Assembly: GCF_008831285.2 (NCBI RefSeq)
Contig: NC_045149.1
Span: forward strand, 15,340,578 to 15,404,577
DNA length: 64,000 bases
Direction: 5' to 3'
DNA from: Nymphaea colorata
Taxonomy: Eukaryota > Streptophyta > Magnoliopsida > Nymphaeales > Nymphaeaceae
Under the pieces are notes generated by a model. It saw nothing but the letters and a program-made list of their open reading frames with translations, was not told the DNA's origin and made no database searches. Below, piece by piece: positions 11,941 through 54,229 of the stretch (position 1 is its first letter; the number at the start of each line of letters is the position of its first letter). The translations under genes and the position numbers were made by a program.

Positions 11941-14349
11941 TGTGCATTAGTAAATCGAGTTTCGAGACTTTCTGGCTTTTGTGGTGATGAAATGTATGCT
12001 GTTAACGGGCGTCGTTCCTCTATTCATTCTCCACATATTCATCGTTACTAAAATAATACTGACTATGGGAAAATTGTCTCAAATCTTAATGCATTTCTAC
12101 AGAAATGGCTGATAGTTCTTGATATCCAATCTATTGTTTCTTATCTGTGTTTATATTTCCCCATAGCTCCACAGTTTGTGGTTATTGAGAGCATGGATAA
12201 TTTGGTTTTCCTTGTAAAATGCACATACTTAATGTTCTACTCTCGTTTGTCGAATGACTTAGTTTCATGGGCTGGAAAAAAAACACCAAGCTCTACTATT
12301 CTGTCAGGTTTGACTCAATTTTTTTTATTTTAAACTATTCATATTTTGCTGGAGCTTTCCTTTTTTAGTCGATTCTTTCATCAGCAATGTCTAGCGATTA
12401 TAATTGCTTGCTAACTATTCATATTTTTTGTTCACCTTGATTCCACTAAAGATTTAAAGGCTACCATTCTAGTTGGCTGCCAACTGTACTAAATAGAAGT
12501 TGTAATTGGATTTGGCAGCCATTTCTATAAAATTTTGAGGCATTTCACTGCAATGAACAACATTGGGAGGCTGAAAGAGTCACTTCTATGAGTTTTGAGA
12601 AGTGTTTCACTGTAAAGGGCATTTGGAGGGTGAAGGAAATTCAACGCCAAGAGGAATGAGGCACACTTTGCCGACGACATGATCTCTGTCAACGACTTCA
12701 CATTACATTGGTCGAGAAACTAATACCCAAACCCCTCATTCTGCAGGATGCTCTGGCCAGCAGCGGCTTCCCGCAGATCATTGCTTCCCTCATTGTGAGG
12801 CTGAGGTCCACCACTTACTGCCGTCCCCGTAACGCTTTTCCCGTGGACCAGACCCATCTCCAGGAGTGAATGAGGCATCGTTGGGCAGGGACGACCAATC
12901 TCCAGGGGCGGTAAAATTTTCTATCTTCGCCCCTGCCAATAGATCTGATGGCAGAATTCCGCCGCTGAAGGTGGCTTTGATATTTGTTTACCGCCATGCT
13001 GGTCCTCTTCGACTTCTCGACAGGAAACAGCTTTCTTGAGAGGGGAGGACCTTATGGAGATCTTCGATGGTGGTCTGCTTTGTTCGAGGGAATCATATTC
13101 CGGCTCCCTGTTGATATCGCGCTTTCTCGGGTCAGCCATATGCCGCTGCATTCTTTCCCTTCGTTTTCTTGTTAGCTTCTGCTTATGCAGAATGTTCAGC
13201 TTCTCTCTAGTTCAATTTAAATAAAAGATAATGCCTCACTGACACCGACAAGTGCAAGCGCCTTCAAGAAATTTTGGCAATTCACTAGTGTAAGCCGAAA
13301 GAAATATGTAATCACAAAAGCAGTTTTAGTTTACAAGAAAACATAAATTTATGAAGCTCCTCTTATTTCATCCAGGCTTCATGCATCATGTTCTTCAATT
13401 GTTCAAATGAGGCGAGTGCAGACGGAAATACTGTATAATTGTATTAATGTTAAAGAAACGATGTGAATACGTCAAAATACGGCTGAAGCCAGAAGAGGAA
13501 GAACATTTCTTCAATACATTCAAAATGGCTGATAAAATGATTCTACTGGTGAATGACCATTATTTGTATTCCTTGAAGCACGGGAAGCAGGGATATTTTT
13601 CAACCACTAAATGAGATAGCTTGATTATATATTTTATTTAATCTGAAAGTCTGGCAAGCAGCTTTTACCTCCATAGTAGGAATTTTTTTCCCTTATCTTT
13701 CAGTGTCTCTCTCTCTTGAATAACAAAATCTAGACAACATAAGACCCTATACTATAAATGGGCACGTCTCCTCTTCTCCGCGATTCCAGTGGGTATTGGG
13801 TTGAGAGGTATTAAATTTGCACTATGAGATATTGATTTTTTATTTTGATTATAGTTTGGCATTTTCTGGTTGCTGTTCATGTAAGCTTAAATGTATAAAA
13901 TTTATAGTTCTTCTTTCATAAAAAACACGTCTTCCAGCTTTCTTGTTTTCTGGTTTACGTTTCATGGAAAATGATTAAAATGTTGGTAGCGTATGCGCAA
14001 ATTGTCTTCATTTAGCTTGTGTAAGCAAATATTTTATGGGATACGGCTGTCTGTCTATGTGTGTATGTATGCATGTAAAGGTTTTTAAAAGTGAGGGGGC
14101 AGGTGTTCCCTAAACCTGCCCTTTGTCCTTTGGTTTAAAGGGTTAAGTCTGGAGATCCAAACGGCGCTAAGGTAATTTCGGATCTATATCTGACGGCCTG
14201 CTATGGCCAGATCCAAATCCATGCAAAAGACACAAGGCTGAACTCTGTCTCCTTATTCGGATCTACAGGGACTACAACTAGTGTTTCCGTCTACGACAAC
14301 GACGCTGAGGTGAAAAAGATTTCTGATGACAAATTTATCTTTTTCCTCG
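11941..14349. other. Intergenic, with unplaced exon-like patches
   Basis: Mostly AT-rich. From about 12600 to 13180 the GC content rises and the sequence looks like gene debris: a possible exon after TTCTGCAG at 12740-12747 reads DALASSGFPQIIASL and onward, and the minus strand at 12921-13151 has an open frame rich in Arg, Ser and Glu. I do not recognise either. No complete gene. Confidence 0.35.
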
Positions 14350-15870
14350 TTGTTGCCTATTGAAACCGCTTTTTTATCTAATTTTCTTTGTTTTCTCTTC
14401 TTCTTCACAGGGCATCTTCGAAGGATTTGGCTTCACAGGCAATCATGAAGCCTAAAACTGATGAGTTGAGATGAAAATAACCAGGTTGCTCAAAAATTGC
14501 CGACGGTTGTGAGTGAGATTCTAGCAGATGATTGGCGTTTGGTTGATTTTGTAGTGGCTGACGCTTGTGCAAACGAAGTGTTGGATGCTTCGACTCAAGT
14601 CCTTTTTAGCTCTCTCTCTCTCTCTATTTAGTGTTTTCCTCTCTTCTTTCCTCCTAGCGTGTGTGAGTGAACGGGCGGCCGGCTTGTATCAGGTCCTCAG
14701 GAGAGGACCTGACGGCCGGAAAGGAGACTTTCTCTGTTCCCCTCCTTTTTACTCCTTTTATTATATGTATTTCGTTCTTTTCTGTTTTCCTTTATCATGG
14801 CACTTTCTCCCCTATATGGTGGAATTTATGTTGGGTTGGAGTTGAGGATGTGGCGGAAGAGTGAAAACGACTCCCTTCGTCTCCAAGGCATTCCGTGATG
14901 AGGGCTTCTAAGTCTGGTCCGGGTGAGGAGGCTGCAAATCTGAGATCTGTTTCACGGCGAACCTCTTTGAGTGGAGGTGGGATGATGCTAGAGATTTGCT
15001 AAAGCTACCCGAATCTGGTGTTGAGGAACATTAAACCAAGATATAGACAACAGGAAGGAATGGGTCGGTTGAACCACGAATGAAAAATTCAAATATTAGT
15101 TAAAAAGATGCTTTTTTTTTGGAAAAGGAAGGCAAGCAGAATCGATGCGATAGTACAGTCCAAACACAGCTGCACCACATAGAAAAGAAGCTAGCTTTGC
15201 TAGATGGGGTGCAACTACTTGCAAAACTAGCTCCATTCATTTTCCTCCTTTTTCACTTCCTTTTACAATTACAATATATATATATATATATATATATATT
15301 GTAAAATGTTTTGTTGGTTTTCCTGCTTCGCTCTCCTACGTGATCAAATTTTACATTCCCTTGCAGTTTTTTCTTTTAGATACCCTAGATTCGATGTTCT
15401 CCATTTTTTTTTATGTTCCAGCACATTCTTCAGGCTGAATTATACAGGTTCCGATCCACCGTAGTGGTTACTTACTTAGTTTCCGAATAAATCGTTAGTG
15501 CTAGAGACAGACAACTCATGTGGGCATTGTCTCCGTCTGTTTATAGTTTTTGCCACGCAGCTTTTGTTTAGACTATGGTACACATTTTGCCTCTTTACGG
15601 TCATGCGCCGGTTTCTAACCTCATAGCCGTCTAAAACTCGGCATCCTTTTGTTTCCAGAGATTTGTTTCCTGCCTCCGGCGGCTCCGCTGGTGCACGTGT
15701 TTCCTGCCTCCGGCGGCTCCGCTGGTGCACGTGTTTCCTGCCTCCGGCGGCTCCCTCATAGTCGTGACTTATGCTTTCCAAGAAAGGGATACAATCTTCT
15801 ACCTTATGATCGATGCTGGCTTGCACTACAACACCAATTTTTTTATTAAGTGCTTGGGGTCGGTTCTCTT
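14350..15870. mobile_element. Rearranged relative of the giant palindrome arms
   Basis: The part from about 14380 to 15250 matches 28470-29390 in the same orientation (shared CAGGCAATCA, GTGGCTGACGCTTGTGC-like, GAGGATGTGGCGGAAGAG, ACAACAGGAAGGAATGGG). After a TA repeat at 15277-15298, the part from 15300 to 15620 matches 33420-33740, the inner part of the other arm. The DUF630 exon between them is absent. A short perfect hairpin lies at 14690-14711. No transposase frame is seen. Confidence 0.7.
15665..15755. repeat. 34-bp minisatellite, about 2.7 copies
   Basis: GC-rich unit beginning TTTCCTGCCTCCGGCGGCTC and ending GCACGTG, in direct tandem at about 15666, 15700 and 15734. Absent from the matching part of the giant palindrome, so it expanded locally. 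Confidence 0.9.
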
Positions 15871-16425: not shown

Positions 16426-16443
16426 CGATGATAATAAGACCAA

Positions 16444-17830: not shown

Positions 17831-18490
17831 AATATCTCTGATCAGAACTGATCAATTAAACCCTGTCCTCCAGTGAAACGAATACCTCTGGATCTAAATA
17901 TCTCTGATCAGATTAGATCGGAGTAAAGATTTGAGGTCCATATCCCATCATTCCTGATCTTATATCCAATTCTGTTCTCTGGATGTGCTTTGAACCGGGT
18001 TTGCCCCCCATTTGAGAAGTCTCCGAAATTCCATGTTTAATCGAATCGGATCTCAAAAAAAAAGTCCAAATGATCCTATTTCCAAATCCAGATATTTTGG
18101 ATCTCAAGCCAAGTACAACTTGAAGGCTAGGATCCAGATTTACAAAATGGAGTTCCAAACTATTGCCTCAATCAGGATGATGAGATCATTTTCTGATCAA
18201 ATGCTTCGCAAAACAAAATAAAAGAAAGTAAACAACTTTTGTTATCCAGATCCCGCCCCGCCTGGCTGATTGTGGCGTGTCCTGCCAAAGGACGCGACGG
18301 GGCCATCCCTCCCCACGCCCGTCTAGGCTCCTTGGCTCGCACTGAATTTCAAATTGTTTTTTGACATTTAATTTAGAAAAATAATAATTTAGTCCATATA
18401 AAATTTTGAAAAAACTATTTATTTCGGTTAAAATTTTAAAACTATAGTTCGGCCCTCCTAATGAAAAATTTCTATGTCAGACCTAATTAG
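17831..18490. repeat. Dispersed repeat block shared with 35.8-37.6 kb
   Basis: Continues the similarity of the R3 flank to the right part of the window: AAATCCAGATATTTTGGATC and AGCCAAGTACAACTTGAAG recur near 36370-36410, and the hAT-like tail at 18361-18490 recurs at 37478-37610. The right-hand copy is longer because other sequence, including Copia gag debris, lies inside it. Confidence 0.65.
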
Positions 18491-22584: not shown

Positions 22585-24382
22585 GGTGATGATTTTTTTA
22601 TTTATTTTATTTAATATTTTAAAAATTGAAGGTGGATTGTGAAGGGTAAATTTGTAATTTGGGTTTATATCTTAATATATTTTAAAATGACGCTTTTTAT
22701 GAGTTTTATGAAAACATTGAGAGCTTATTTGACGCAGTTCAAAAGTTGAAGGTGTAATTGTTATTAGCCCAAAGGATGGGTGTTCCTTTCTAAATTTTTC
22801 CTATCTTTTCATTCACAATAAAAAAATATCTTGGATTTTTTATATTTCGTGCTTGAATTTAAAACGGAGACGTTTTCTCTGGCGTCGGAACAACCGTTCC
22901 GATATCTCCAGCGAATGGCGTCGATGTTATATCTTAGAAGATTGAGGCGTCTTTCACAAACCTGTCGCGTTAAATAAATGGCATTCGCGCCATATCTTTT
23001 CTTGAAACCGATGGCTTCCGCCCCCCTCCGACTCCACCCTCTTCCCGCCCCCTCCATCCTTCCCTCCTCATCTGATTTTCAAAATCCCGCTAAAACCCTA
23101 ACCTTGAAATTCCCTTTAAAGATTCGTCGTCCGATCATCTCAGGGCTCCTTATCGGAGTCGGAGGAGGATCGATGGCTTAGAGAAGAGCGGCGGTGGCTT
23201 CCAGAGGAATCGAGATGGAATTCCAAGCGGGATGCACTCGATCGAGAGATCTAGGCCATGAAGTTCGAGATCGAGGCTCTAAAGCGGGAGCGATTGTCAC
23301 AGGAAGCATCAGTCATTGATCTGATCACGAATCTCACGGGTCTCTTGCAGACCCTGAAGGGTGCAGATTTGAAGTCCGTCTTGGCGTCATCTCGTAATCA
23401 GATTCCTGATCGAATCGAAGAAGTTCCTGTTGTTGACTCCGTGCCAGAGGAAGAGCGGAAAGAAAAGAGGAGGCTGCGGAGGAAGGGTTCAGAAGGAGAG
23501 GATGTTAGAGGCTTAGAGCTATGTAGGTCTGCCATGGAAGACGGTGAAATTTCTTGCATTTTTTATGAAGGCGAGTTTAGCTTGTGTTCTCAAGTTGTTC
23601 TGTTCTATTGTTTAATCTGGGATATCCGTGGTTTAAAGTGGGAAAACAGACGGGATATGGTATGTTGTCAATCTCCATTCACAAACTTACTTACTGATCC
23701 AGAAATAAGGCGAGAGTGCTGATCTGTACATAACTTTACATGGTTTAAGTATGTAAAGGCGCTACCAACTCTGCCTTTTCTGTTCGTAAAAAATTGTAAT
23801 TTTGGTAGATCAGTTACTTTATGTTTTTTATTTTCTTGCAGAGAACGTATTGAATTTGCTTGGCGTCCTTTAGGGTTCCTATTTTGATTTGTCTTTGCTT
23901 TTCACTTTTGGCAGCAAGCTTTGCAGAAATTAGGATTCTACTCAGGCGCGGAGGATGTAGAATTTTCAACCTTTTCGAGCGGAGCCGAGAATGCTGTAAA
24001 AACATGGCAAGTATGTGAAAACTGCTCTTTGTTTTCTTGTACGCGTGTTTGTTTTGTTTTGTTTTGTTTTTCTCTCTGTAACTGATTGGTAAACTATCTG
24101 ACCATTCTCCCTTTGTTAAAATTGGTTCCTAAGACAGAACCTTGTATTATTGCCTCGTCTAATTTCTTATATATCAACTCTCTAAGGGTGGTTTGGACCA
24201 TGCGATGAAGTTATTGAACCTCTCTCTAATCTATGCTAGCGTTATACGTTTGGTTATGTGTCATTAGATATTGTCGGCGGTTGATATTTCACCAGATAGT
24301 GCGAACATGATATTAACCTGACTAATATCTGACAGCGTCACAGCAGCCACTGGTCGAAACTCTCTCTCTCTCTCTCTATCTA

Positions 24383-24428
<46 letters not shown>

Positions 24429-27293
24429 TATATATAGATATATATATATATATAACATCACGAGAAAAGTTGGACGTCGATTTGCTCAATTAAATGAAAA
24501 CATGCATGTTCACTAGCTCAGAGTAACACTTTTACATGGCACCTTCGTTTCAAGTTGATGGATATCAGCGACCACTTAGCTATAAAGACTTTCTGTTATT
24601 GATCACTTTGATTTGTTTTCTTTACGTGAGCTTTGTTTTCTGAAATGCTTTTCCATTTGATATCTAGAGTGACGTAAGGTTCTTTTAAGAGGTTGTCCTT
24701 AAGGTGATGTTCAAGATTTATAGCTTTAGATTAATAATTCCAATTGGAGGTATGAAGGTGTCTTTAATCTTTATGAACTACTGCAATGGGCCCACTGCAT
24801 CTGTGCCATCTCCGATTCTTCCGTCTATGTCCATGTGCTGTAGGTCTGATGTTTTATTCCACATGCACCGACAAATTACATTTATATACCTTTCAGATCG
24901 AGTCTATGAATTGTTTAGTTTAAGGTTATCATATAAAAGAAAAAGGTTTTGCTTCTGGAGAAAAAAGAAGCACCTGCCATAATATGATTGACATAGTAGC
25001 TAAAACATCTGACATATAAAATAGGTGAGGCTGTGTTGTATGATATTTTTAATAGCACCTGCCAGTAAATGCTCTGTTTAAGTGCCATGTAGGTGCCCTG
25101 TAGGTGCCTATATGTTCCTCAATGAAGGGGAAAGTGCTCAGTGAGGGTGATTCTAGAATAAATGCCTAAGAGGGCGAGGTACCTTCGGATGTTCAGAAGT
25201 AGTGAAGCAGACCGTTTGTTTACAAATAAAGCTGCTCAAATTGCAAATTCATGTTCAGTGTTATCTAGTTCTAAGTTTGGTTGTGGAGAATTTGATATTG
25301 ATTTAGAAATCTTTCTTGCATAGGCATCGGTTGGGTTTCCTGAAAATGGAATTATGACATTGGGACTGTTGGAAAGACTATATGGGGAGAGGTGTCGCTG
25401 CAAGAAAATGCTGATGCGGATGTTGATGAAACAGGCACTGAGCCGACCTCTGGCAAGATACTTTAACTGTGTTTCAGCATATTCTGTAACTGTCCTGACC
25501 ATTATTGTCCAGTTTCTTCACCTTTGCAAGAAACATAACGTGCTTGCCGAAGGTGCCTGCTGTCCCATCTATTGACATTTGAGCAATAAGTTGGTCCTCT
25601 TTCCGGAGGTTGGCGTGTGGTGTGAGAGGGAGTGGCTTGACATGTTTGGGAATTTAATTCTTTATGTTGAGACATAATAAATTTGATGCTCCTATTGTAC
25701 AAAATCCAAAGTGATGGACGACCTGCATGGATCTTCGCATTGTTGTCAGTTTTCAGCACCACAGTTGAATATCAAACTTTGCTTTCGCTTGATGGCTGCT
25801 GACCTTCATGCACTTATTTATGCGAGGGCTGATTTCTGAATTCTTGCAATCAGTGTGTTCTGGTCTTGCCGGATTTGTGTTTTATTTGCGTGTTTAGTGA
25901 CTGGAATCCATAGATTCCTTACCCTCTCAATGTAGCCCTTGCTTTGTTTTTTCTCTTCCTTTCTCCTTCCCATGCATGTGAGCATATATCAATAGTTGAT
26001 ATTGATTTAGAAACATTTGTTGCATAGGCATCGGTTGGGTTGCCTGAAGATGGAGTTATGACTTTGGAGCTGTTGGAAAGGATATATGCAGAAGTGCCGC
26101 TGAAAGCAAATGCTGATGAGGATGACGAAGAAAGAAGCACTGAGCCGATTGCTGGCAAGGTACGTTAACTGTGTTTCAGCATATTCTGTAACTGTCCTGA
26201 CCATTATTGTCCAGTTTCTTCACCTTTGCAAGAAACATAACGTGCTTGCTGAAGGTGCTGGTTGTCACATCTGTTGAACAATAAGTTGGTCCTCTTTCAG
26301 GGGATTGGGGCGTGAGAGGTAGTGGTCTGATATGTTTAGAAATTTGACTCTTTATGTTGGGGCATAGTAAATTTGATGCTCCACTTGTACAAAGTCCAAA
26401 TTGATCGACGACCTGCATGGATCTTCGCATTGTTGTCAGTTTTCAGCACCATAGTTGAATATCAAACTTTGCTTGCACTTGATGGCTGCTGACCTTCATG
26501 CGCTTACATATGCAAGGTCTGATTTCTGAATTCTTGCAATCAGTGTGTTCTGGTCTTTGCCGGATTTGTGTTTTATTTGTGTGCTTAGTAACTAAAATCC
26601 ATACCCTTCTAATGAATCCCTTGCTTTGTTTTTTCTCTTCCTTTCTCCTTCCCACGCATGTGAGCATATATCAATAGTTGAGATGTACTAAATGGTGTCT
26701 CAGATTCTGTGCACATATGTTTTATAGGATGGTGTTAATGGATCTGTCCGAGCATCCAGCACTTCAGTCACTGAAGTTTCAGAGATGAAGGAAATGCTTT
26801 TAAAGGATAATGTTTTCATTGAAGTTGTGACTTCAGAGCATAAAGCCTTTCTTTTGGAAGAAAATAGGTGGGAAGAACCGTCGAGACTTTTGGGTAGCAA
26901 CAAGCAGAATGGTAAAGGTTAAGCCAAGTCAGGAACAAAGTGCCTTGCCTGTAGTGGTGAAGGCCGTTTGATGTGCACAGGTGCTGGCATTTTTCCTTTT
27001 TATAATATTGTTGTGTTTCTATTAAACTGCACGAGAATTTGTTAAGCATCAACATGCGGTGCGAAGTTAATCACTGCAGTAGGGTAATTTTTCCAAGTTT
27101 GAACTGGTTTTAATCCTCTTGGACTAGTTATTGGAGGAACGGACTTTTAGATTTACATAATTTATCCAAGAACATATTTCATGTATGTATGGCGCCTAAT
27201 TATCTGAGACTTGGGTTGATGGAACTTGTAACTTACCAATTCCAAGTTCCTTTGCCCCTTTATAATTACAATATTTCCCAAGTTCTTGGCTTG
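22585..27293 (+). pseudogene. pTAC5 copy A, truncated and broken
   Basis: A second copy of the pTAC5 gene at 38.1-42.4 kb, alike in promoter, introns and exons. Exons corresponding to 1-4 are at about 23011-23545, 23915-24010, 25324-25456 with a duplicate at 26028-26159, and 26728-26980. Lesions: a one-base gain in exon 1 near 23111-23120; an in-frame TAG at 23252-23254; loss of one WLREE repeat unit; an 8-base gain at the end of exon 1; donor GT changed to AT after the first exon 3; TAA at 26920-26922 in exon 4. The last two exons, with most of the zinc-binding cysteines, are missing because similarity stops at about 27293, where a foldback element begins. Confidence 0.92.
24361..24454. repeat. 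Compound TC/TATC/TA microsatellite
   Basis: In intron 2 of pTAC5 copy A. The same intron position in the intact gene has a TC/TATC array at 39881-39952 without the long TA part, so the array predates the duplication and changed afterwards. Confidence 0.95.
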
Positions 27294-28402: not shown

Positions 28403-29398
28403 TAAATCGCCCTATGAAACCCCTTTTTTCTCTTTTTCTTTGTTGTTGCCTTATGAAACCGCTTTTTTTCAGTCACAGACCGCTTTTTATCTCATTTTCT
28501 TTGTTTTCTCTTCTTCTGTCACAAGGTATCTTCGAGGGATTTGATTTCACAGGCAATCAGGAAGCCTAAAATTGATGAGTTGGGATGAAAATAACCGGGT
28601 TGCTCAAAAATTACTGCCGGTTGTGAGTGAGATCTAGTTGATGATGGTGCTTGAAAGATTGCGGTTCCTTTGTAATGGCTGACGCTTGTGCAAAGAAAGT
28701 GTTGGATGCTTCGATTGATGTCCTTCTTAGCTCTCTCTATTTAATGTTTTCTTCTCTTCTTTCCTCCTAGCGTGTGAGTGGACGGGCGGCCGGCTACACG
28801 GCCAACAAAGGAAGGGGAACCACGTTGGAGTGAAGGCCGGAAAGGAGATTTTCTTTGTTCCCCTTCTTTTACTCCTTTTATTATATGTATTTCGTTCTTT
28901 CCTGTTTTCCTTTATCTTGGCACTTTCTCCTATGGTGGTATGGTGGAATTTATGTTGGGTTGGAGTTGAGGATGTGGCGGAAGAGTGAAAACGACTCCCT
29001 TCGTCTCCAAGGCATTCTGTGATGAGGGCTTCTAAGTCTGGTCCGTGTGAGGAGGCTGTAAATCTGAGATCTGTTTCACGGCGAACCTCTTTGAGTTCAG
29101 GTGGAGGTGGGATGCTGCTAGATTTGCTAAAGCTACCCGAATCTGGTGTTGAGGAACATTAAACCAAGATATAGACAACAGGAAGGAATGGGTCGGTTGA
29201 ACCAAGAATGAAAAATTCAAATATTAGTTAAAAAGATGGGTATTTTTCGAAAAAGAAGGTAAGCAGAATCAAATCGATAGTACAGTCCAAACACAGCTGC
29301 TCCACACAGAAAAGAAGCTAGCTTTGGTAGATGGGGTGCAACTACTTCCAAAACTAGTTCCATTCATTTTCCTCCTTTTTCACTCAAATTTACATGAT

Positions 29399-29462
<64 letters not shown>

Positions 29463-29541
29463 CTATAATATTCTTAGCATATGTTTAATCATTAGTTGTC
29501 CTATTCTTTGTAGTGGTTATGTTATGAAATGTGTTTTCTAT

Positions 29542-29573
<32 letters not shown>

Positions 29574-29903
29574 CCTTAATTATTTTGGTTTAGAGTGGTC
29601 TAGTTAGTACAAATTAAACTTGACATTTTTGTATGCTTATACGTTTTTAAAGGGGTGAAAATGAGCTACTCACACTCCTGTTAACCTTTATTAAGCTGTG
29701 TTACTGTGAAACATATTTTACACTAAATAAAGATTAATAACCGTTGGTAATTGTTTGTATTTCAAACACAACTAAAAAAACCTACGAGCAAGTCTTTATG
29801 AATTTCTCTTTTCTCACTAACTTTCTCACTACAGGGCAGACGACATTGCGGCTCACTACTGAGTACAGAGGACAGATCCTCTCTCTCTCTCGGGCGACAC
29901 AAC

Positions 29904-30122
29904 ATGGGTTGCGCCACCTCCAAGGTAGAGAGCGTAGACACCGTGGACCGCTGCAGAGAGCGGCGCCGCCTCATGAAGCAGGCGATGAAGTCCCGCCACC
30001 ACGTTGCTTCCGCCCACGCCGACTACCTTCGCCTGTTCGCCACCTCCGCCTCACGGTCTCGGCTCTCTCCCATTTTTCGGCCGGCGAGTCCCTCGCCGTC
30101 AGCGACGGTACTCTCCCTCTGA
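29904..30122 (+). pseudogene. DUF630-family first-exon fragment, left arm
   Basis: Starts [20 protein letters not shown], the conserved N-terminus of plant DUF630/DUF632 proteins (the group that includes NRG2, a nitrate regulator), with a Gly2 myristoylation-type start. It continues [20 protein letters not shown], the core of DUF630. An 8-base gain near 30030 shifts the frame relative to the right arm. The DUF632 part is absent. Confidence 0.85.
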
Positions 30123-31463
30123 TCCTCTGCCGTTGTTCCTCCTCCTCCTCCTCCGGCCCTTCACCCTCCCGCGAAATCCAAATCCTTCCACCATACTACC
30201 ACTTCTGCCGCCGATTCCTATCCCGCTAATCTTCACCTTCCTTCCAAAACCGTGACGGTGGGAGTTTCCGCAACCCCGTTTCCTACTCATTCTATATCCG
30301 GATCCTCTACTTCTTCCAGTTTCCGGGCTGCCGGAAAACCCAGGAGCAGAGAATTCTAAGCTGACAAGCAAAATGTGTACGACAGTCCAAACAAAAGCTG
30401 CGTGGCAAAAACTAGACACAGACGGAGACAATGCCCACATGAATTGTCTCTGGCACTAACGATTTATTCAGGAACTAAGTAAGTAACCATTACGGTGGAA
30501 CCTGTATAATTCTGCCTAATCTGTGCTGGAACATAAAAAAAACAATGGAGAGCACCGAATCTATGGTATCTAAAAGAAAGAACTGCAAGGGAATGTGAAA
30601 TCTAAAAGAAAGAACTGCAAGGGAATGTGAAATTTGATCACGTAGGAGAGCGAAGCAGGAAAACCAACAACACATTTTGGAAAGATAGCAGGACTTTTCC
30701 TTTAGAATTTTAAAGCAAAACCCAAACTTGAGTAAAATGACTGAAAGCCACAAACCAATAAATTAGGACTGAAAGAGGATCGCTTTTCCCCTCGCAGATG
30801 TGTTGTTTTTTGTTACTTCAGGCGGATTATACAGGTTCCGATCCACCGTAATGGTTACTTACTTAGGCATGTGAAGTAACAAAAAACAACACATCTACGT
30901 TTTTCATTTAATAGATAAAACTTCTACGTTTTTTACTACTCCCCTTCATCTCTGCTTTTTTCTTCAGTGAGAGAATTTGCTACTGTGGTCTCTTCTCCTT
31001 CCATGTACTTGTGAATCTGGTCTATTTATTTAATAGGTGTGGCTTTGTCCATTTGGCTTTTCCTTCTTTGGCTAAATGCGGTCCTTTGTGTCACTGTGTA
31101 TGCGATGAGAGGAATCCATTAATTCTCGCTCGGCCACAACTTTTTTACAATGAGGAGGGCGAGTTTTCTGGAAAAAGATGAAGAGAAAGACATATTGGAC
31201 AAGAAGGAGCAGGAGATTAGAAAGATGCCATCAAGGCGATAAACATCAGCAGCTTGTATATTCTTCGGCTGCTCGCCAACAAGTAGTCTTAAGAAATTTG
31301 GGTCGAACGTTCAGTTTTGAACTAGTTTTGCTTCTTCTGATTCTAATGCATCTTGATTCTTATTCCAGGAACAGGAGACAAAGTTTTTTTGCCCTCAATA
31401 AATATCTCTACAGTTGAGGAAATGAGAAGAAGAGAAAAGCTCATTATTTATCATCATGCAAAA

Positions 31464-31652
31464 TTAGGAACCAGAGTGGGCGAGAAACGAATAACATTTA
31501 GCGGCTGAAAGAAAGCACGTCGTTAGCAGCTCCAAGGAAGAGAGAGAGAGAGAGAGAGAGGGGGAGAGAGAGAGAGAGAGAGTACCAGAATAAGCATTCT
31601 CACACACCACAGTGGCCTTAGTACCAACTCCCCTGGACCTTTTCCTCAACAT
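31464..31652 (-). pseudogene. Possible captured 5' exon (FLZ-like start), left arm
   Basis: Minus frame starts MLRKRSRGVGTKATVVCENA, then YSGTL followed by a GA/CT repeat. The start resembles FLZ-domain (DUF581) proteins, which often begin with Met-Leu and several basic residues, but no FLZ zinc finger follows. The same start occurs in the right arm at about 32530 (plus). The family guess is weak; the pairing in both arms is clear. Confidence 0.35.
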
Positions 31653-32529
31653 GAGTCTTTCTCTCTCCCCCTACCCTTCCTGTCTCCCACACAAAGGGCT
31701 TGTTTGGTTGGGAGGGAAAGGGAGAGATTGCTCTTATGTTTGGTTGGTTAATTAGAAAGATGAAAATGAAAGAAAAGGAAGAAAAAGGTTTTTATAGTGT
31801 AAATTTAATTCCTCCCAGACGGATTGAAAGGGAAAGGAAAAAGAGTAAGTATAAAAGTGTTGACTGCCCACAATACTCCTCCATGTTTTTTTTCTCCCTG
31901 CCTCTCAACCTTTTGACTATTGAGGATATTATTATAAATTGTATCGTTTTCTTATTCCATTCATTTTTATTCAAACAAGCTTTTATAATCATTCTTTCAT
32001 CAGTGAAACCCCATGGACTGACAGTGGTGACACCTGGCTCAGAACCCAAAAACTACCAAGACGAAAGGTGTTTTATTTCATCTCACAGCCGCCAGACCGA
32101 TGAGGACCGCTAAACATGGTCCCGTCGTTGTTGTCCTCTCGGCCTTTCTGTGACGTGTTTACATCAAAATGGACGAACACATTCAATCCATCGGATAAGG
32201 GGTCAGGTGCTATCCAGCGCACGCAAATTGCTGAAATACAAATGGTGGCTGCCCTCATCGGTCTAGCATCTGTGAGATGAAATAAAACACCTTTGGTCTT
32301 CTATCCTTTTGTTTGTTGGTACTCCAAAAACCGCACCTTCTCTGTAGAAGAATGGTAGTTTTTGGGTTCTGAGCCAGATTCTTTCGGAAAGGAGGTGTCA
32401 CCGCTGTGAGTCCTCACGGTGGTTTCCTCGTCGTGGTTGTGTGATGGCGTTCCACTGATTCGGTTTTTATTTGTTCTTGTGGTTTCTTTTGGTGTGGGAG
32501 ACAGGAAGGGTAGGGGGAGAGAGAGACTG

Positions 32530-32610
32530 ATGTTGAGGAAGAGGTCCAGGGGAGTTGGTACTAAGGCCACTGTGGTGTGTGAGAATGCGTATTCTGGTAC
32601 CCTCTCTATT
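32530..32610 (+). pseudogene. Possible captured 5' exon (FLZ-like start), right arm
   Basis: Same MLRKRSRGVGTKATVVCENA start as on the minus strand at 31464-31652. The sequence TCTGGTACC after the start could contain a splice donor. No downstream exon is recognised. Confidence 0.35.
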
Positions 32611-33863
32611 TCTCTCCCTCTCTTCCTTGGAGCTGCTAACGACGTGCTTTCTTTCAGCTGCTAAATGTTATTCGTTTCTCGCCCACTCTGGTTCCTAATG
32701 TAGCATGATGAGCTTTTCTCTTCTTCTCATTTCCTCAAATCTAGAGATATTTATTGAGGAAAAAAAACTTTTATCTCCTGTTCCTGGAATAAGAATCAAG
32801 ATGTATTAGAATCAGAAGAAGCAAAACGGGTTCAAAACTGAACGTTCGACCCAAATTTCTTAAGACTACTTGTTGGCGAGCAGCCTAAGAATATACGAAT
32901 TGCTGATGTTTATGGCCTTGATGGCATCTTTCTAATCTCCTGCTCCTTCTTGTCCTTTATATCTTTCTCTTCATCTTTTTCCAGAAAACTCGCCCTCGTC
33001 ATTGTAAAAAAGTTGTGGCCGAGGGAGAATTAATGGATTCCTCTCATCGCATACACAGTAAAACAAAGGACCGCATTTCCCCAAAGAAGGAAAAGCAGAA
33101 TGGACAGAGCCAGACCCTATTAAATAAATAGACCAGATTCACAAGTACATGTAAAGAGAAGAGATCACAGTAGCAAATTCTCTCACGGACAGAAAAAAGC
33201 AGAGATGAAGGGGAGTAATAAAAATCGTAGAAGTTTTATCTATTAAATAAAAAACGTAGATGTGCTGTTTTTTGTTACATCACATGCCTAAGTAAGTAAT
33301 CATTACGGGGAAAAGCGATCCTCTTTCATTCCTAATTTATTGGTTTGTGGCTTTCAGTTATTTTACAGAAGTTTGGGTTTTGCTTTAAAATTCTAAAAGG
33401 AAAAGTCCTGCTATCTTTCCAAAATGTGTTGTTGGTTTTCCTTCTTCCCTCTCGTACGTGATCAAATTTCACATTCCCTTGCAGTTCTTTCTTTTAGATT
33501 TCACATTCCATTGCAGTTCTTTCTTCTAGATACTATAGATTCGGTGTTCTCCTTTGTTTCTTTTATGTTCCAGCACAGACTTAGGCAGAATTATACAGGT
33601 TCCGAACCACCATAATGGTTACTTAGTTTCCGAATAAATCGTTAGTACCAGAGACAATTCATGTGGACATTGTCTCCGTCTGTTTATAGTTTTTGCCACG
33701 CAGCTTTTGTTTGGACTGTCGTACACATTTTGCTTATCAGCTTAGAATTCTCTGCTCCTGGGTTTTCCGGAAACTGGAAGAAGTAGAGGATCCGGATATA
33801 GAATGAGTAGGAAACGGGGTTGCGGAAACTCCCGCCGTCACGGTTTTGGAAGGAAGGTGAAGA

Positions 33864-34175
33864 TTAGCGGGATAGGAATCGGCGGCAGAAGTGGTAGTAT
33901 GGTGGAAGGATTTGGATTTCGCGGGAGGGTGAAGGGCCGGAGGAGGAGGAACAACGGCAGAGGATCAGAGGGAGAGTACCGTCGCTGACGGCGAGGGACT
34001 CGCCGGCCGAAAAATGGGAGAGAGCCGAGGCCGTGAGGCGGAGGTGGCGAAGGTAGTCGGCGTGGGCGGAAGCAACGTGGTGGCGGGACTTCATCGCCTG
34101 CTTCATGAGGCGGCGCCGCTCTCTGCAGCGGTCCACGGTGTCTACGCTCTTTACCTTGGAGGTGGCGCAACCCAT
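33864..34175 (-). pseudogene. DUF630-family first-exon fragment, right arm
   Basis: Reads [20 protein letters not shown] on through [20 protein letters not shown] and GESLAVSD, the complete DUF630 domain (about 60-70 residues), open for 103 codons. It lacks the 8-base gain of the left copy and so keeps the ancestral frame. The downstream coiled-coil and DUF632 regions are missing. A full-length donor gene should exist elsewhere in the genome. Confidence 0.87.
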
Positions 34176-35393
34176 GTTGTGTCGCCCGAGAGAGAGAGAG
34201 GATCTGTTCTCTGTACTCCGTAGTGAGCAGCAATGCCGTCCGCCCTGTAGAGAGAAAGTTAGTGAGAAAAGAGAAATTCATAAAGACTTGCTCGTAGGTT
34301 TTTTTTAGTTGGGTTTGAAATACATAAAATTACCAACGGTTATTAATCTTTATGTAGTGTGAAATATGCTTCACAGTAACACAGCTTAATAGGAGTGTGA
34401 GCAGCTCATTTTCACCCCTTTAAAAACGTATAAGCATACAAAAATGTCAAGTTTAATTTGTACTAACTAAACCACTCTAAACCAAAATAATTAAGGCATA
34501 TATATATATATATAGAAAACACATTTCATAACATAACCACTCCAAAGAAAAAGACAACTAATCATTAAACATATGCCAAGAATATATATATATATATATT
34601 GTAAAAGAGAGTGAAAATGGAGGAAAATGAATGGAGCAAGTTTTGGAAGTAGTTGCACACCATCTACCAAAGCTAGCTTCTTTTCTGTGTGGAGCAGCTG
34701 TGTCTGGACTGTCCTATCGCTTTGACTTGCTCACCTTCCTCTTCGGAAAAAACCCATCTTTTAAACTAATATTTGAATTTTTCATTCGTGGTTCAACCGA
34801 CCCATTCCTTCCTGTTGTCTGTATCTTGGTTTAATTTAGCAAATCTAGCAGCGTACCACCTCCGCCCCAACTCAAAGAGGTTCGCCGTGAAACAGATCTC
34901 AAATTTGTAGCCTCCTCAACCGGACCAGACTTAGAAGCCCTCATCACGGAATGCCTTGGAGACGAAGGGAGTCGTTTTCACTCTTCCGCCACATCCTCAA
35001 CTCCAACCCAACATAAATTCCACCATATAGGGGAGAAAGTGCCATGATAAAGGAAAACAGAAAAGAACGAAATACATATAATAAAAGGAGTAAAAAGGAG
35101 GGGAACAGAGAAAATCTCCTTTCCGGCCGTCAGGTCCTCTGCTGAGGACCACAAATAATCTGAGTGAGCAACAAGGGAGCCCCTTCCTTTATTATTGGCC
35201 GTGTAGCCGGCCGCCCGTTCACTCACACACGCTAGGAGGAAAGAAGAGAGGAAAACACTAAATAGAGAGAGAGAGAGAGCTAAAAAGGACTTGAGTCGAA
35301 GCATCCAACACTTTGTTTGCACCAGCGTCAGCCACTACAAAATCAACCAAACGCCATCATCTGCTAGAATCTCACTCACAACCGTCGGCAATT

Positions 35394-35790
35394 ATTCCTT
35401 ACTGAGAATATGAGAAAGGAATTTCTCACAACACGTACATCACACAAAAGGCTCCTAGTGGTTCTATGGGAAGGCCTACTACGTCCACAGTTAAAGGGAC
35501 TCTTTTACTCGGCGTCCTTCTCTATGTTCCTCCTTATATTTCATCGTCACAATTCGTGTGCGCACGGTCTTGCCTCACACAGAGGATGAGGATTCCTGAT
35601 TTGGTGGATTCAAATCCTTAGCGATTAGGTAATTCCATCTCCTTTCTTTATTTGTTAATTTTACTAATTACAATGAACCAAAAGGGCGTGGAAACACATA
35701 AGACCATTTTTTATTTTGTACATAAATTATGAGATTGGGATTTGATACGGCTCAAATATGAGCTCTTACTCAATAGCATGCATGATTTGA
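35394..35790 (-). mobile_element. Copia-like LTR relic R4
   Basis: Partner of 17468-17830: shared TTTCTCACAACAC, CCTAGTGGTTCT, TCCACAGTTAAAGGG, CGGCGTCCTTCTCTATGTTC and GATTTGGTGGATTCAAATCC. The TATA-like box on the minus strand is weaker (AAATATAAGG). It abuts the giant palindrome. Confidence 0.6.
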
Positions 35791-37629
35791 TTTTTTGGAA
35801 CTTCATAGGCAACCAAAGCACAAGAACTGGCGACCCAAATGTCGAACCCTTTCTATCTAGAGCATGCCGTCATATTTATTGGATTACACGACCACGTAAA
35901 TGACCCTAAAATTTACCATGATTAGCATCCAATTTTTCCAAAAGGGGGGACGCAAAATTGTGCTTTAACCATTTTGAACTATGCATCCCTTGTTTATTGC
36001 AATTTCTTGGCAATTTGATCCAGATCGAACCATGAATCTCACCCGGTCAACTTGATTTGAGGTCCGTATCCAGAAATTCTATTCCGCTTCTCGTCGAAAC
36101 TGATCAATTAGACCCTGTCCTCAAGTGAAACGAATATCTGGTGACTGGATCCATTTCTAAATATCTCAGATCAGATTAAATTGGAGCAAAGATTTGTGGT
36201 CCATATCCGATCATTCCTGAATCCAAATGAGATCTTATATCCAATCCTGTTGATCTGGATGTGCTCCCAAATGATTTGAGCAAATCTCCGAAATTCCACG
36301 CTTAATCGAATCTTTGGATTTAAAGATCTCAAAAGATCCAAGTCCAAATGATCCTAAACTCATTACCAAATCCAGATATTTTGGATCTCAAGCCAAATAC
36401 AACTTGAAGCCTAGGATCCAGATTTATAAAATGGAGTTCCAAACTAATGCCTCCAGGTCTAATTTGATCCCAACCTATGCTTTTAGTTGTAGTTCCAAGT
36501 AGAATCACGATGATGAGATCCTTTTCTGATCAAATGCTCCACAAAACAAAATAAAAGAAAGAAAAGTTACAACTTTTGCTATCCTGAGCCCGCCCCGCCT
36601 CGCTGATAGAAATTGAACCATCTCTACTGCGGTGCCGTGTCGTGCCAAAAGACTCGACCTGTCTAGGCCCAACGGCTCGCACTGAACTCATGTTAGGCTC
36701 GAGCTTGCTACTGTTGAATCTATTATGGTCTTAGCTCGTCAATGACCGATCCTGTTTTGTTTGGGTTTACTTCGTGTCATAAGAACAAGATCGGGAGAAG
36801 CTGAGACTCCCATAACATGCAATTTTCTGTCTGCCGTAGACTTAATAGAAAGAAAGTGATGTAGGGAGTTAAAAGAAAAGATTGTAACGGCTGCTATAAA
36901 TCCTCTGTTTTTTCTCACACTTTATTACTCTCGTGTATCTCTTATATACACGCAGCGATATGCAGTTACATTTCAATTTACGTTGCAGTTATTAAAGGAT
37001 AATAACTGCTTCACACGTCCAGCAGCACTTTCCGCTTGTTATGTTATGGAAACTGACCATCATCGTAGCATTTTTTTGCACGTCCAGCAGGTGGTTCCCA
37101 TGATGTCACTCTGGGTTGCAGCCTCGCCTCACATGATCAGCGCCATAACATAGACGTTTCTAGAACTGATCACGTCTGGTAGTCTAGAAACGTCTATATG
37201 TTAATAGGAGTAAGGGAGACGATTAGCTTATGCGGATTCCCTTTCATGAACTCTACGTCGAAAATCCATCCAAATTCTTTACTTAATTTGTCACAGACGG
37301 AGGTGAAGGTGATCGAGTTCATTTATTGTGAAAATGCTTAATTGCGAAGCATACTATAAGAAGATGGCGATGCTCGAGTGCTTGACTTTCTAGGCTTTGG
37401 GTTTCCGTCGATCAGGCTAAGAAAGAAAATTTGGGAGGTAATAATGGAACAGTCGGGGTGGAGCTGGGGTCATGGACCCCCTCAAATTTCAATTTTAAAG
37501 AAAATTATTTAGTCCATATAAAAATTTGGAAAAATTATTATATTCTGATTTATGTTAAAATTTTAAAACTATAGTTCAGCCCTCCTAATAAAAAACCTAA
37601 TTAGAATAATGGTTAGAGTAGACTGCTAA
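35791..37629. repeat. Repeat block with Copia gag debris and hAT-like tail
   Basis: Matches 17831-18490 in two parts with extra DNA between. Around 36790-36880 the minus strand resembles the SIKL region of the Copia gag in R2 but is frame-broken. A near-perfect hairpin lies at 37148-37201 (ACATAGACGTTTCTAGA against its complement). The end at 37478-37610 is the same hAT-like tail as at 18361-18490. Confidence 0.55.
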
Positions 37630-37850
37630 CAGAGCATATAGTCTTTCTTCTGGTGGAAAATAGGTGGGAAGAACCGTCGAGACTTTCAGGTAGCAACAAG
37701 CAGATTGGTAAAGGTGAGGCCAAGTCAGGAACAAAGTACCTTGCCTGTCGTGGTGAAGCCCGTTTGTTGCTGGCATTTTTCATACGTTGTTGAGTTTCTA
37801 TATGAGAATTTGTTAAGCATCAACATGCGCTTCAAAGTCAATCTCTATTT
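37630..37850 (+). pseudogene. Third pTAC5 fragment (end of exon 4 and intron start)
   Basis: Matches 41590-41820 of the intact gene: GAAAATAGGTGGGAAGAACC, GGTAGCAACAAGCAGATTGG and GCCAAGTCAGGAACAAAGT. About 11 bases at the exon end, including the Met-Cys-Thr codons and the splice donor, are deleted. It lies 0.7 kb upstream of the intact gene in the same direction, so at least three copies once existed in tandem. Confidence 0.88.
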
Positions 37851-38525
37851 AGGTATGATCTCCCGTATTTTATTTAAGAACCATTTTCTTGAGTTTTGAG
37901 TTGATTTTGTTCAGAATTTTTTTTTTTTCTACGATCCTTTCTACCCATTCTATGGGCACCCTTGATGCCCTGGCTGCTCGGCCAGGGTCGGGGATTTGAT
38001 CTCTATCGCTGGACTTCTGGCGAGGGGAGTGGAAGACCAACTGGGTGCGATGCCTCTTACGGTGAGTGAGGGTCGATAGACGGTCAATTCTCGATGATGA
38101 TTTTTTATTTTGATGTTTTAAAAATTGATGTTGATATTGAAGAATAAATTTGTAATTTAGGTATATATTTTAATTTTTTTAAATGGGGCTTTTTGTGAGT
38201 TTCATGGAGGGCTTATTTGTGCTGCCCAAATTATTATTGGCCAAAAGGTTGGGTGTTCCTTTGCAAATTTTTCTTTCATCTTTTATTTGTTTGGAAACGT
38301 AGGAGTGGATTGGATGCTGTGCAGGACTCGTTTTGAGAGGATTATTGGATCCATCGTTCGTGGTACCCTGCTGTAAAAAAAATATCTGGGATCTTTTCGC
38401 ATTTCGTCGGCCAAACGTTTGCATATCTCCGGGGAGTGGCATCGTTGTTATATCTTGGACATTAAGGCGTGTTTCACAACCATGTCCCGTTCACTAAAAG
38501 CCGTTCGCGCCTTATCTTGAAACCG
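37851..38525. promoter_or_regulatory. 5' flank of intact pTAC5
   Basis: From about 38095 this matches the 5' flank of copy A from 22585 (shared AAATTTGTAATTT and GGGTGTTCCTTT), so the promoter was duplicated with the gene. No single TATA box is convincing. The leader just before the start codon reads ATCTTGAAACCG in both copies, apart from small changes. Confidence 0.45.
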
Positions 38526-39878
38526 ATGGCTTCCGCTTCCCTCCGACTCCACGCTCTTCCCGCTCCCTCCATCCTTCCCTCCTCCTCCGATTTTCAAAAT
38601 CCCGCTAAAACCCTAACCCTAACCGTTAGATTCCCTAAAAGATTCGTCGTCCGATCATCTCAGGGCCCCTTATCGGAGTCGGAGGAGGATCGATGGCTTA
38701 GGGAAGAGCGGCGGTGGCTTCGGGAGGAGCAGCGGTGGCTTCGAGAGGAATCCAGATGGAATTCCGAGCGGGATGCGCTCGATCGGGAGATCACGACCCT
38801 GAAGCTCGAGATCGAGGTTCTAAAGCGGGAGAGATTGTCACAGGAAGCATCAGTCGTTGATCTGATAACGAATCTCACGGGTCTCTTGCAGACCCTGAAG
38901 GGTGCAGATTTGAAGTCCGTCGTGGCGTCATCTCGTAGTCAGATTCCTGATCGAATCGAAGAAAAACATGTTTTATTAGAAGAAGAGCCTGTTGTTGACT
39001 CCGCGCCAGAGAAAGAGCGGAAAAAAAAGAAGAGGTTGTTGAGGAAGGGTTCAGAAGGAGAGGATGTTAGAGCTATGCAGGTCTGCCATGAAAGACGCTG
39101 AATTTTCTTGCATTTTTTTATGAAGGCGAGTTTAGTTTGTGTCCTTGAGTTGTTCTGTTATATTGTTTAATCTGGCATGTATCTGTGGGAAAATCGGCCG
39201 GATATGGTATGTTGTCAATCTCCATTCACAAACTTACTTATTCATCCAGATATAATGCGACAGTTGATCTTTCAATCATTTTACATGGTTTGAGTAGATA
39301 AAGTTGTTATCAACTCTGCCTTTTCTGTTCGTAAAAATTTGTAGATTTTGGTAGATCAGTTACTTTATGTTTTTTATTTTGTTGCAGAGAACGTATTGAA
39401 TTTGTTTGGCGTCCTTTAGGGTTCCTATTTTGATTTGTATTTGCTTTTCACGTTTGGCAGAAAGCTTTGCAGAAATTAGGATTCTACTCAGGCGAGGAGG
39501 ATGTCGAATTTTCAACTTTTTCGAGCGGAACCGAGAGTGCTGTAAAAACATGGCAAGTATGTGAAAACTGCTCTTTGTTTTCTTGTTTGTGTGCATGTTT
39601 TGCTCTCTATAACTGATTGGCAAACTATCTCACCATTCTCCCTTTGCTAAACTTGGTTCCCAAGACAGAACCTTGTACCATTGCCTCGCCTAATTTCCTA
39701 TAGATCAATTGTCTAAGGGTGGTTTGGACCATGCTATGAAGTTATTGAACCTATCTCTAATCTATGCTAGCGTTATACGTTTGATTGTGTGTCATTAAAT
39801 ATTGTCGCGGTTGATATTTCACCAGATAGTGCGATCATGATATTAACCTGACTAATATCTGACAGTAGCCACTTGTCG

Positions 39879-39952
<74 letters not shown>

Positions 39953-42434
39953 AATTTCTCGTTCGATACATAGCATCAGGAGCAAAGTGATATTGGACGT
40001 CGATTTGCTCAATGAAATGAAATGAAAACGTGCATGTTCACTAGCTCAGAGTTACACGTTTTCGTAGCACCTTTCTTACAAGCTGATGGATCTAAGGAAC
40101 CATTTAGCTTTAAAGATTTTCTGTTATTGATCACTTTGATTTGTTTTCTTTACGTGAATTTTGTTTTTTGAAATGCTTTTCCATTTGATATCTAGAGTGA
40201 CTTAAGGTTCCTTTTAAGAGTTTGTCCTTATGGTGATGTTCAGGATTTGTTGCTTTAGATTAATAATTCCAATTGGAGGTAGAAAGGTGTCTTTAATCTT
40301 GTTTTTTACGAACTACTCCAATGGGCCAACTGCATGTGTGCTGTCCCCGATTCTTCTGTCTATGTCCATCTGCAGTAGGTCTGATGTTTTATTCCACATG
40401 CACCGACGAATTAGATTTCTATGCCTTTCAGATCGAGTCTATGAATTGTTTAGGTTATCATATAAAAGAAAAATGTTTTTCTTTTGGAGAAAAAAAAGAA
40501 GCACCTGCTATAATATGATTGAGATAGTATCTAAAACATCTGACATATAATATTGGTGGGGTTGTGCTGCGTGATATTTTCAATAGCACCTGCCAGTAAA
40601 TGCTCTGTTTAGGTGCCACCTCGGTGCCTATATGTTCCTCAATGAAGGAGAGTGCTGAGTGAGGGTGATTCTAGAATAAATGCCTAAAAGGGCAAGGTAC
40701 GTCTGGATGTTCAGAAGTATTGAAGCAGACCGTTTATTTTTAATAAAGCTGCTAAATTGCAAATACAATTTGATATTGATCTAGAAATCTTTCTTGCATA
40801 GGCATCGGTTGGGTTGCCTGAAGATGGAGTTATGACTTTGGAACTGTTGGAAAGGCTACATGGAGAGGTGCCGCTGCAAGCAAATGCTGATGCGGATTAT
40901 GAAGAAACAAGCGTTGAGCCGATCGCTGGCAAGGTACGTTAACTGTGTTTCAGCATATTTTGTAACTGTCCTGACCATTATTGTCTAGTTTGTTCACTTT
41001 TGCAAGAAACATAACATTGTCGCATCTATTCAGATTTGAGCAATAAGTTGGTCCTCTTCCTGGAGGTTGCGGCGTGAGAGGGAGTGGCTTGACATGTTTG
41101 GAAATTTGATTCTTTATGTTGGGGCATAGTAAATTTGATGCTCCACTTGTACAAAATCCAAAGTGATGGATGACCTGCATGGATCTTCACATTGTTGTCA
41201 GTTTCAGGGCCATAGTTGAATATCAAACTTTGCTTTTGCTTGATGGCTCTGACCTTCATGCACTTACATATGCAAGGGCTGATTTCTGAATTCTTGCAAT
41301 CAGTGTGTTCTGGTCTTTCCAGATTTGTGTTTTATTTGCGTGTTTAGTAACTGAAATCCATACCTTTCCAATGAAGTCCTTGCTTTGTTTTTTCTCTTCC
41401 TTTCTCCTTCCATGCATGTGAACATATATGAATAATTGAGATGTACTAAATGGTGTCTCAGATTCTGTGCACATATGTTCATAGGATGGAGTTAATGGAT
41501 CTGTCCGAGCATCCAGCACTTCAGTCACTGAAGTTTCAGAGATAAAGGAAATGCTTTTAACGGACAATGTTTTCATGGAAGCTGAGACTTCAGAGCATAA
41601 AGTCTTTCTTCTGGGAGAAAATAGGTGGGAAGAACCGTCAAGACTTGCAGGTAGCAACAAGCAGATTGGTAAAGGTGAAGCCAAGTCAGGAACAAAGTGC
41701 CTTGCCTGTCGTGGTGAAGGACGTTTGATGTGCACAGGTGCTGGCATTTTTCCTTTTTATAATATTGTTGTGTTTCTATTAAACTGCACGAGAATTTGTT
41801 AAGCATCAACATGCGCTGCGAAGTTAATCACTGCAGTAGGGTAATTTTTCCAAGTTTGAACTGGTTTTAATCCTTTTGGACTAGTAATTGGAGGAACGGG
41901 ACTTTTAGATTTACGTAATTCATCCAAGAACATATCTCATGTATGTATGGCGCCTAACTATCTGAGACTTGGGGTGATGGAACTTGTAACTTATTAATTC
42001 CAAGTTCTTGTGCCCCTTTATAATTACAATACTTCCAAAGTCTTTGGCTTGCACCATGAAGCTGTGCTTTAGGTTTTAACTTTTATTCGTAGAGCAGTCT
42101 TAACCTCGAAAGCAATGATGCCATCAATTGTATGATCGAGATGGCTGTTCCTTTGCTAAAAAGTTGTCTCTGTTTTCTTTGTAGAATGTGATGGTACTGG
42201 TGAACCCAATGTCGAAGAGCAGGTTAGATTGGGTTTGATGTAGCCTTTTATCAGATGCTTCTTTTCTTTTTTTCCTTTTCTTGCCCTCTAGACACCACTG
42301 GTTCCTCATTTTTTTATCTCCAACTGATGCAGTTCCTGGATTGGGTGGAAGATGGAGCCAAGTGCCCTTATTGTGAAGGCCTTGGTTATACCATCTGTGA
42401 CGTGTGTGACGGCAGAGCTGTAATAAGCTCTTGA
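38526..42434 (+). CDS. PTAC5: pTAC5, plastid transcriptionally active chromosome protein 5
   Basis: Plastid nucleoid protein; Arabidopsis pTAC5 is linked to the plastid transcription machinery and the chaperone HSP21 under heat. Exons 38526-39080, 39461-39556, 40802-40933, 41485-41737, 42185-42222 and 42333-42434 give 391 residues in one frame. Order: Ser/Pro-rich transit peptide (about 1-45); three WLREE repeats in a charged helix (56-78) and coiled coil; basic linker; peptidoglycan-binding-like fold (about 175-240, KALQKLGFYSGEEDVEFSTF then SAVKTWQASVGLPEDG); ENRWEEPSRL; and a DnaJ-type zinc domain with four CxxC units (CLACRGEG, CTECDGTG, CPYCEGLG, CDVCDGRA). The start at 38526 is chosen over two in-frame upstream ATGs because it begins the MASAS transit peptide as in relatives. 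The duplicated copy at 22.6-27.3 kb is dead. Confidence 0.95.
39881..39952. repeat. TC/TATC microsatellite
   Basis: In intron 2 of intact pTAC5. It corresponds in position to the compound array at 24361-24454 in copy A. Confidence 0.95.
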
Positions 42435-48309: not shown

Positions 48310-48344
<35 letters not shown>

Positions 48345-54188: not shown

Positions 54189-54192
54189 CTCT

Positions 54193-54195
<3 letters not shown>

Positions 54196-54226: not shown

Positions 54227-54229
<3 letters not shown>

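Follow-up and report, generated by a model that had tools for sequence, protein, structure and literature searches.

A chimeric palindrome carrying pieces of three gene loci at a palindrome-rich locus of Nymphaea colorata

The window analysed here is a stretch of 64,000 nucleotides from Nymphaea colorata (contig NC_045149.1, here C12, positions 15340578-15404577), and it contains a large palindrome, P28606, whose arms hold pieces of several host genes. Positions are window coordinates unless given as contig:position, and genome searches covered the 407.8-Mb assembly of 783 contigs. The initial annotation, made from the letters alone, had described a palindrome of about 6.8 kb at 28610..35393 with arms of more than 3 kb and a small unpaired centre. 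Comparison of the window with itself bore this out, giving arms of 3.5 kb (left, 28606-32110) and 3.2 kb (right, 32248-35413) around a loop of about 137 bp. The inverted pairs 28606-30791/33307-35396 and 30846-31695/32489-33308 were 85.9% and 90.4% identical, counting gaps, and the innermost paired stretch was 32058-32110/32248-32300, with 137 nt between. At aligned bases the arms were 94.7% identical (150 mismatches in 2846 columns, 28606-31695 versus 32489-35396). As judged by eye, the right arm probably reaches ~17 bp beyond 35396, to about 35413. The palindrome is real and far beyond chance.

Three donor loci make up most of each arm: a DUF630/DUF632 gene on C12, an aquaporin gene on C1 and an FLZ zinc-finger gene on C2. 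The genes beside them belong to the Pfam families DUF630 plus DUF632, MIP and zf-FLZ. The expectation that the arms match real host genes was thus correct, and the matches fall on the DUF630/DUF632 gene, the 3' side of the aquaporin gene and the 5' end of the FLZ gene. A DUF630/DUF632 donor gene, for which a search had been proposed, was found about 145 kb upstream on the same contig. Its start codon is at 15223741, its open first exon encodes DUF630 and the beginning of DUF632, and later DUF632 frames extend to 15230558. The pieces in the arms follow the donor order, from the upstream segment through the 5' untranslated region (5'UTR) into exon 1, after which an inverted piece of the same gene follows (Table 1). 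The left copy begins at 28427, 179 bp outside the left edge of the palindrome. A further 2.7 kb of the donor upstream region (C12:15220410-15223122) is not in the window copies, either because the donor gained extra sequence by insertion or because the stretch was deleted long ago. The aquaporin donor (C1:3521812-3522730) lies downstream of the last exon matched by Pfam MIP, in a gene that we take to be of the PIP type. The FLZ donor encodes a product beginning MLRKRSRGVG. No inverted repeat of at least 100 bp was found in the C12, C1, C2, C9 and C7 donor loci; the C8, C10 and C13 loci lay outside this check. A gene with DUF630 and DUF632, REL2, controls leaf rolling in rice (PMC4967057).

Both N-terminal features named in the initial annotation were recovered. 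The conserved DUF630 N-terminus is present in the left arm at 29904 (+) and in the right arm at 34175 (-), with Pfam DUF630 E-values of 1.1e-16 and 7.2e-21. The second start, MLRKRSRGVGTKATVV, was read at 32530 (+) and 31652 (-) and corresponds to the 5' end of the FLZ gene. No Pfam family was obtained with its 44-residue right-arm peptide alone.

Table 1. Features of the palindrome P28606 and its surroundings in window coordinates. MITE, miniature inverted-repeat transposable element.
Feature	Position	Strand	Match or remark
Palindrome P6929	6929..7223		Both halves match C12:15275411-15275550
Palindrome P7384	7384..8117		Mirrored C12:15280498-15280744 and C8:16350899-16351002; part of loop matches C10:23947321-23947403
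Palindrome P10336	10336..11295		C13:2125621-2126383, preceded by C13:2119672-2120545
Unit 1, forward colinear DUF630 5'-region copy without 5'UTR and exon 1	13921..15699	+	C12:15219072-15225422
Palindrome P15913	15913..17458		5' end of subtilase-like gene (C9) and DUF630 5'UTR piece, mirrored
Palindrome P27291	27291..28405		C7:4761136-4761785; second match C9:21885266-21885813
DUF630/DUF632 upstream region, 5'UTR and part of exon 1, left copy	28427..30343	+	C12:15219628-15220409 and 15223123-15224216
P28606 left arm	28606..32110	+	Self-comparison
Putative arm-to-arm gene conversion tract	29872..30343		3 mismatches in 450 aligned columns
DUF630 exon-1 piece, left arm	29904..30343	+	Frame broken by 8-bp insertion
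Inverted DUF630-gene piece	30333..30799	-	C12:15225314-15224862; mirrored at 33307-33768
Aquaporin 3'-side pieces	30912..31555	+	C1:3522730-3522401 reverse, then 3521812-3522218 forward; mirrored at 32611-33242
FLZ gene 5' end, left copy	31579..31695	-	C2:14058764-14059133
High-copy MITE-like repeat, left arm only	31696..31998		Dozens of genome matches, not in right arm
P28606 unpaired loop	32111..32247		No other genome match among matches listed for 31440-32700
FLZ gene 5' end, right copy	32240..32603	+	C2:14058764-14059133
P28606 right arm	32248..35413	-	Final ~17 bp meet flank F at ~15-nt stretch common to donor and flank
DUF630 exon-1 mirror piece, right arm	33767..34175	-	Frame open for 103 codons
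Right flank F	35397..37622	+	Related to unit 1 flank at 17478-18508

The neighbourhood was scanned over 240 kb of C12 (577 bp missing) at E-values of 1e-10 or better with the low-complexity filter on. Eight inverted alignments of at least 100 bp with a spacer below 8 kb were obtained, which correspond to six palindromes, all of them within 6929-35396 of the window; the other ~211 kb scanned yielded no palindrome of this size. The five further palindromes, which like the three-donor make-up of the arms went unnoticed in the initial annotation, lie beside P28606 at 6929-28405, and in each of them the two arms match one and the same set of segments elsewhere. P7384, with its C12 and C8 pieces, is also a mirrored patchwork. 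The C9 donor of P15913 comprises the 5' side and part of an 801-codon open frame that is subtilase-like by sequence; two short window peptides from this piece gave no Pfam family. The window stretch matching the C7 donor of P27291 also fits the C9 match for the greater part of its extent and, at its end, C11:888659-888761, and the C7 locus may itself be chimeric. Arm identity at aligned bases was 79.0% in P6929, 84.5% in P7384, 93.1% in P10336, 89.3% in P15913 and about 94.1-94.6% in P27291. With identities ranging from 79 to 95% across the six palindromes, the events are therefore probably spread over a long time.

Donor homology extends past the left palindrome edge in four of the six (P28606, P15913, P10336 and P7384) and stops at that edge, within about 10 bp, in P27291 and P6929. 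Direct duplications flank two of the six, P10336 and P27291, and not P28606. P10336 lies between direct copies at 8308-8945 and 11292-11926 (91.1% identical at aligned bases), and the 2.3 kb between these copies also contain a C13 patch and a high-copy repeat. This repeat (8958-9226, dozens of genome matches) adjoins the end of the first copy and the C13-derived patch. P27291 lies between two copies, 14334-27293 and 28427-42051, of a patchily colinear unit of ~13 kb. Unit 1 repeats the DUF630 5' region in forward orientation, so a copy already at the locus may have supplied the DUF630 part of P28606.

The relative timing of capture and mirroring was examined in three of the six palindromes by counting private substitutions in the two arms and the donor. 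For P28606, 73 were found in the left arm, 73 in the right arm and 91 in the donor (2210 columns in seven segments, exon excluded). The corresponding counts were 13, 10 and 11 in 447 columns for P27291, compared with its C7 donor, and 21, 14 and 31 in 465 columns for P15913. Arms and donor are thus nearly equidistant, and this near-star pattern suggests that, in these three palindromes, the pieces were mirrored at about the time of their capture.

The DUF630 exon behaved differently from the rest of the arms. Here the arms were 99.3% identical to each other and both 94.3% identical to the donor, with two gaps relative to the donor common to both. None of 5000 permutations equalled this low-mismatch window at any of the widths used (300, 400, 450 and 480 columns). 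Compared with two neighbouring segments, arm-private changes were depleted in the exon (2/406 versus 34/733, p = 3e-5), whereas donor-side changes were not (21/406 versus 29/733, p = 0.37). Because of this difference, the low divergence over about 29872-30343 reads as the mark of a recent arm-to-arm gene conversion that homogenised the exon. Selection on the exon was considered as the source of the 99.3% identity and set aside: the distance between donor and arms is not reduced, and both arms have the same two gaps.

Other features of the window were recorded alongside. The stretches 22883-27293 and 38405-42051 form a tandemly duplicated gene region, 89-92% identical at aligned bases, whose left copy has an extra internal direct repeat (25292-26002/25996-26684). 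An open reading frame (ORF) of 211 codons at 38466-39098 encodes a coiled-coil-looking protein with an N-terminus that appears plastid-like by eye. Searches of Pfam and of solved structures with the ORF at 9218 returned nothing. Part of flank F (35507-35680) recurs at 78-83% identity on C14 (five places, 2.32-3.46 Mb) and C13 (6.75-6.77 Mb), with weaker matches on C2 and C4. Much of 47123-64000, including a GMC-oxidoreductase ORF at 48426-50180, recurs just downstream at C12:15405127-15418183, with 93-94% identity in long pieces.

On balance, and somewhat better than evenly, we favour the reading that P28606 is a chimeric inverted duplication formed by error-prone repair or replication at a palindrome-prone locus. 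We infer both the polymerase steps and the sequence in which they took place. At the outset the locus would already have contained a DUF630 5'-region copy, as in unit 1, and this copy would have been the template for a free 3' end. Synthesis would then have moved to an inverted piece of the same DUF630 gene, next to the aquaporin flank (C1) and from there to the FLZ 5' end (C2). The strand would next have folded back, so that the new strand was re-copied in reverse, and the flank would have been rejoined at a short shared stretch. Later, the DUF630 exon would have been homogenised between the arms by gene conversion, and the MITE-like repeat would have entered the left arm. The observed arm composition and its donors, with patches from several chromosomes in mirror order, the near-star relations to non-palindromic donors, the overhanging left edges and the five neighbouring palindromes, two of them between direct duplications, fit recurrent template switching with fold-back, which is the simplest account.

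Several observations weigh against this reading. Microhomology at three junctions, read by eye and without a null test, is weak evidence (about 2, 5 and 2-3 nt); the join of the right arm and flank F, judged in the same way, has about 15 nt. Some junctions carry filler that is unexplained. The inverted DUF630 piece has the largest donor excess, with 24 donor-private changes versus 9 and 10 in the arms, and P15913 also has a longer donor branch; with such donor-side excess, mirroring may have come some time after capture. The ~13-kb unit copies, which are 82.8, 89.1, 89.3 and 92.3% identical in four stretches, are more diverged than the arms of P27291, so P27291 need not be a product of the event that duplicated the unit. 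Over the outer region, unit 1 resembles the right arm (94.8%) more than the left arm (91.6%). A second comparison with the donor gave other branch proportions; both results are unexplained. Finally, a very similar patchwork would be expected if loose fragments had been ligated by end joining or if a mobile element that went unrecognised had captured the pieces.

A rival without template switching, in which loose DNA fragments underwent end joining and the product was then duplicated in inverted orientation, would suit patches that are mostly short, arbitrarily oriented and joined with little microhomology. It requires, however, that each palindrome was mirrored in a separate event shortly after ligation, and we regard it as unlikely. 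A mirror artefact of assembly has in its favour that palindromes are hard to assemble, but it is unlikely as the source of P28606 given the divergence of about 5% and the many indels between the arms. These indels are private to the arms, one repeat is present in a single arm and each arm is related to the donor independently, so that an artefact is very improbable.

The initial annotation had proposed a Pack-type element that underwent inverted duplication, and this was not supported. In such a reading, a Pack-type transposon (for example a Pack-MULE, from Mutator-like element) captured three gene fragments and its terminal repeats grew to include them. P28606 does carry host gene fragments from different chromosomes in its arms. 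Pack-MULEs are reported to carry gene fragments, most MULEs having long terminal repeats (PMC3310237), and the flanks of P28606, TTGCTCAAAA on the left and TTACTGAGAA on the right, are alike at 7 of 10 letters by eye. This likeness, however, falls inside donor homology, which crosses the left edge of P28606, and the outer arms are DUF630 flanking sequence that, among the matches listed, match only this locus and the DUF630 donor. No terminal repeat common to the six palindromes was found in their 80-bp ends: one of 60 cross-pairs exceeded the 98% null level (score 21) and none the null maximum of 26. The 15-bp flanks of the six palindromes showed no direct repeat by eye and hence no target-site duplication, which for MULEs is given as 9-11 bp (PMC3310237). 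No transposase match was obtained among the 12 ORFs scanned with Pfam out of 27 of at least 100 codons at 6-45 kb; the other 15 were not scanned and the genome was not searched for transposase. Weak Pfam matches below the cut-offs (DUF5919, Cap17-like_N and DUF3450) were disregarded. That neither a terminal-repeat family nor target-site duplications were found, and that donor homology crosses the left edge of four palindromes out of six, speaks against a Pack-type transposon, which was dropped as first choice, and for recurrent template switching with fold-back. Capture and mirroring that appear close in time also count against the transposon, and we consider it rather unlikely.

The orientation of the gene pieces bears on what P28606 might do. 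The DUF630 5' regions of both arms face the centre and the FLZ 5' ends face away from it, so RNA transcribed from either would include hairpin or antisense sequence. With transcript limits that are inferred, the left and right arms share 173 and 141 exact 21-mers with the DUF630 5'UTR and exon 1, 28 and 130 with the FLZ region, and 136 and 151 with the aquaporin 3' region; 947 of the 3129 right-arm 21-mers are exactly present in the left arm. The locus thus combines inverted partial gene copies, target genes elsewhere and exact matches of at least 21 nt to them, and these shared 21-mers make hairpin silencing possible in sequence terms. Such sharing would agree with a functional hairpin-RNA locus, maintained by selection, that silences DUF630, FLZ or aquaporin genes in trans, and for which Mu killer and the poplar ARR17 repeats are precedents (see below). 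The arms outside the exon nevertheless diverge without visible constraint, the exon tract is accounted for by gene conversion, and an Rfam scan of 5000-45000 gave nothing at the gathering threshold; we find such a selected, functional locus quite unlikely.

Patch-mediated break repair with tandem duplications was reportedly described in rice by Vaughn and Bennetzen in 2014; going by the title of that work, insertions accompany direct duplications there, as they do at P10336 and P27291. Fold-back inverted duplications in human and yeast are reported to involve a hairpin or fold-back step (PMC3907307, PMC7467729) and resemble P28606 as inverted duplications, whereas here pieces of other chromosomes are in both arms and events recur at one locus. 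Pack-MULE and Pack-TYPE elements, as outlined in PMC8903248 and PMC3310237, also hold host gene fragments; P28606 differs in having no terminal-repeat family or target-site duplication, and its fragments are inside mirrored arms. Mu killer of maize is a partial inverted gene duplication with a proposed hairpin RNA of ~4 kb and reported silencing (PMC3440606). P28606 is likewise a partial inverted duplication with hairpin potential, but Mu killer has one source element and P28606 has three gene loci and is known here from sequence. The partial ARR17 inverted repeats of poplar (PMC9636151) are similar in being inverted partial gene copies with hairpin potential and a target gene elsewhere; unlike P28606, they have reported small RNAs and silencing, one target gene and sex linkage. 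No description of a multi-donor palindrome cluster in a plant was found in the titles and abstract openings returned by a literature search.

On the established view, new silencing loci and young microRNA genes can arise from inverted partial gene copies. One could picture a long-lived locus to which pieces of host gene regions, in several cases 5' ends, are added again and again from many chromosomes, each being made into a palindrome. Its stock of hairpin-RNA templates directed at host genes would thereby grow, and it would be a plant counterpart of hairpin-RNA or piRNA clusters; we regard this as speculative and improbable. The origin of inverted partial gene copies is seldom visible, and here six palindromes of 79-95% arm identity stand in one locus with their donors at hand. 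In the three palindromes set against their donors, the mirror form appears to date from about when the pieces were captured, so that an origin of hairpin loci as repair products, without a transposon, can be put to the test. The locus also offers a natural setting in which to ask if chimeric hairpins affect several genes simultaneously.

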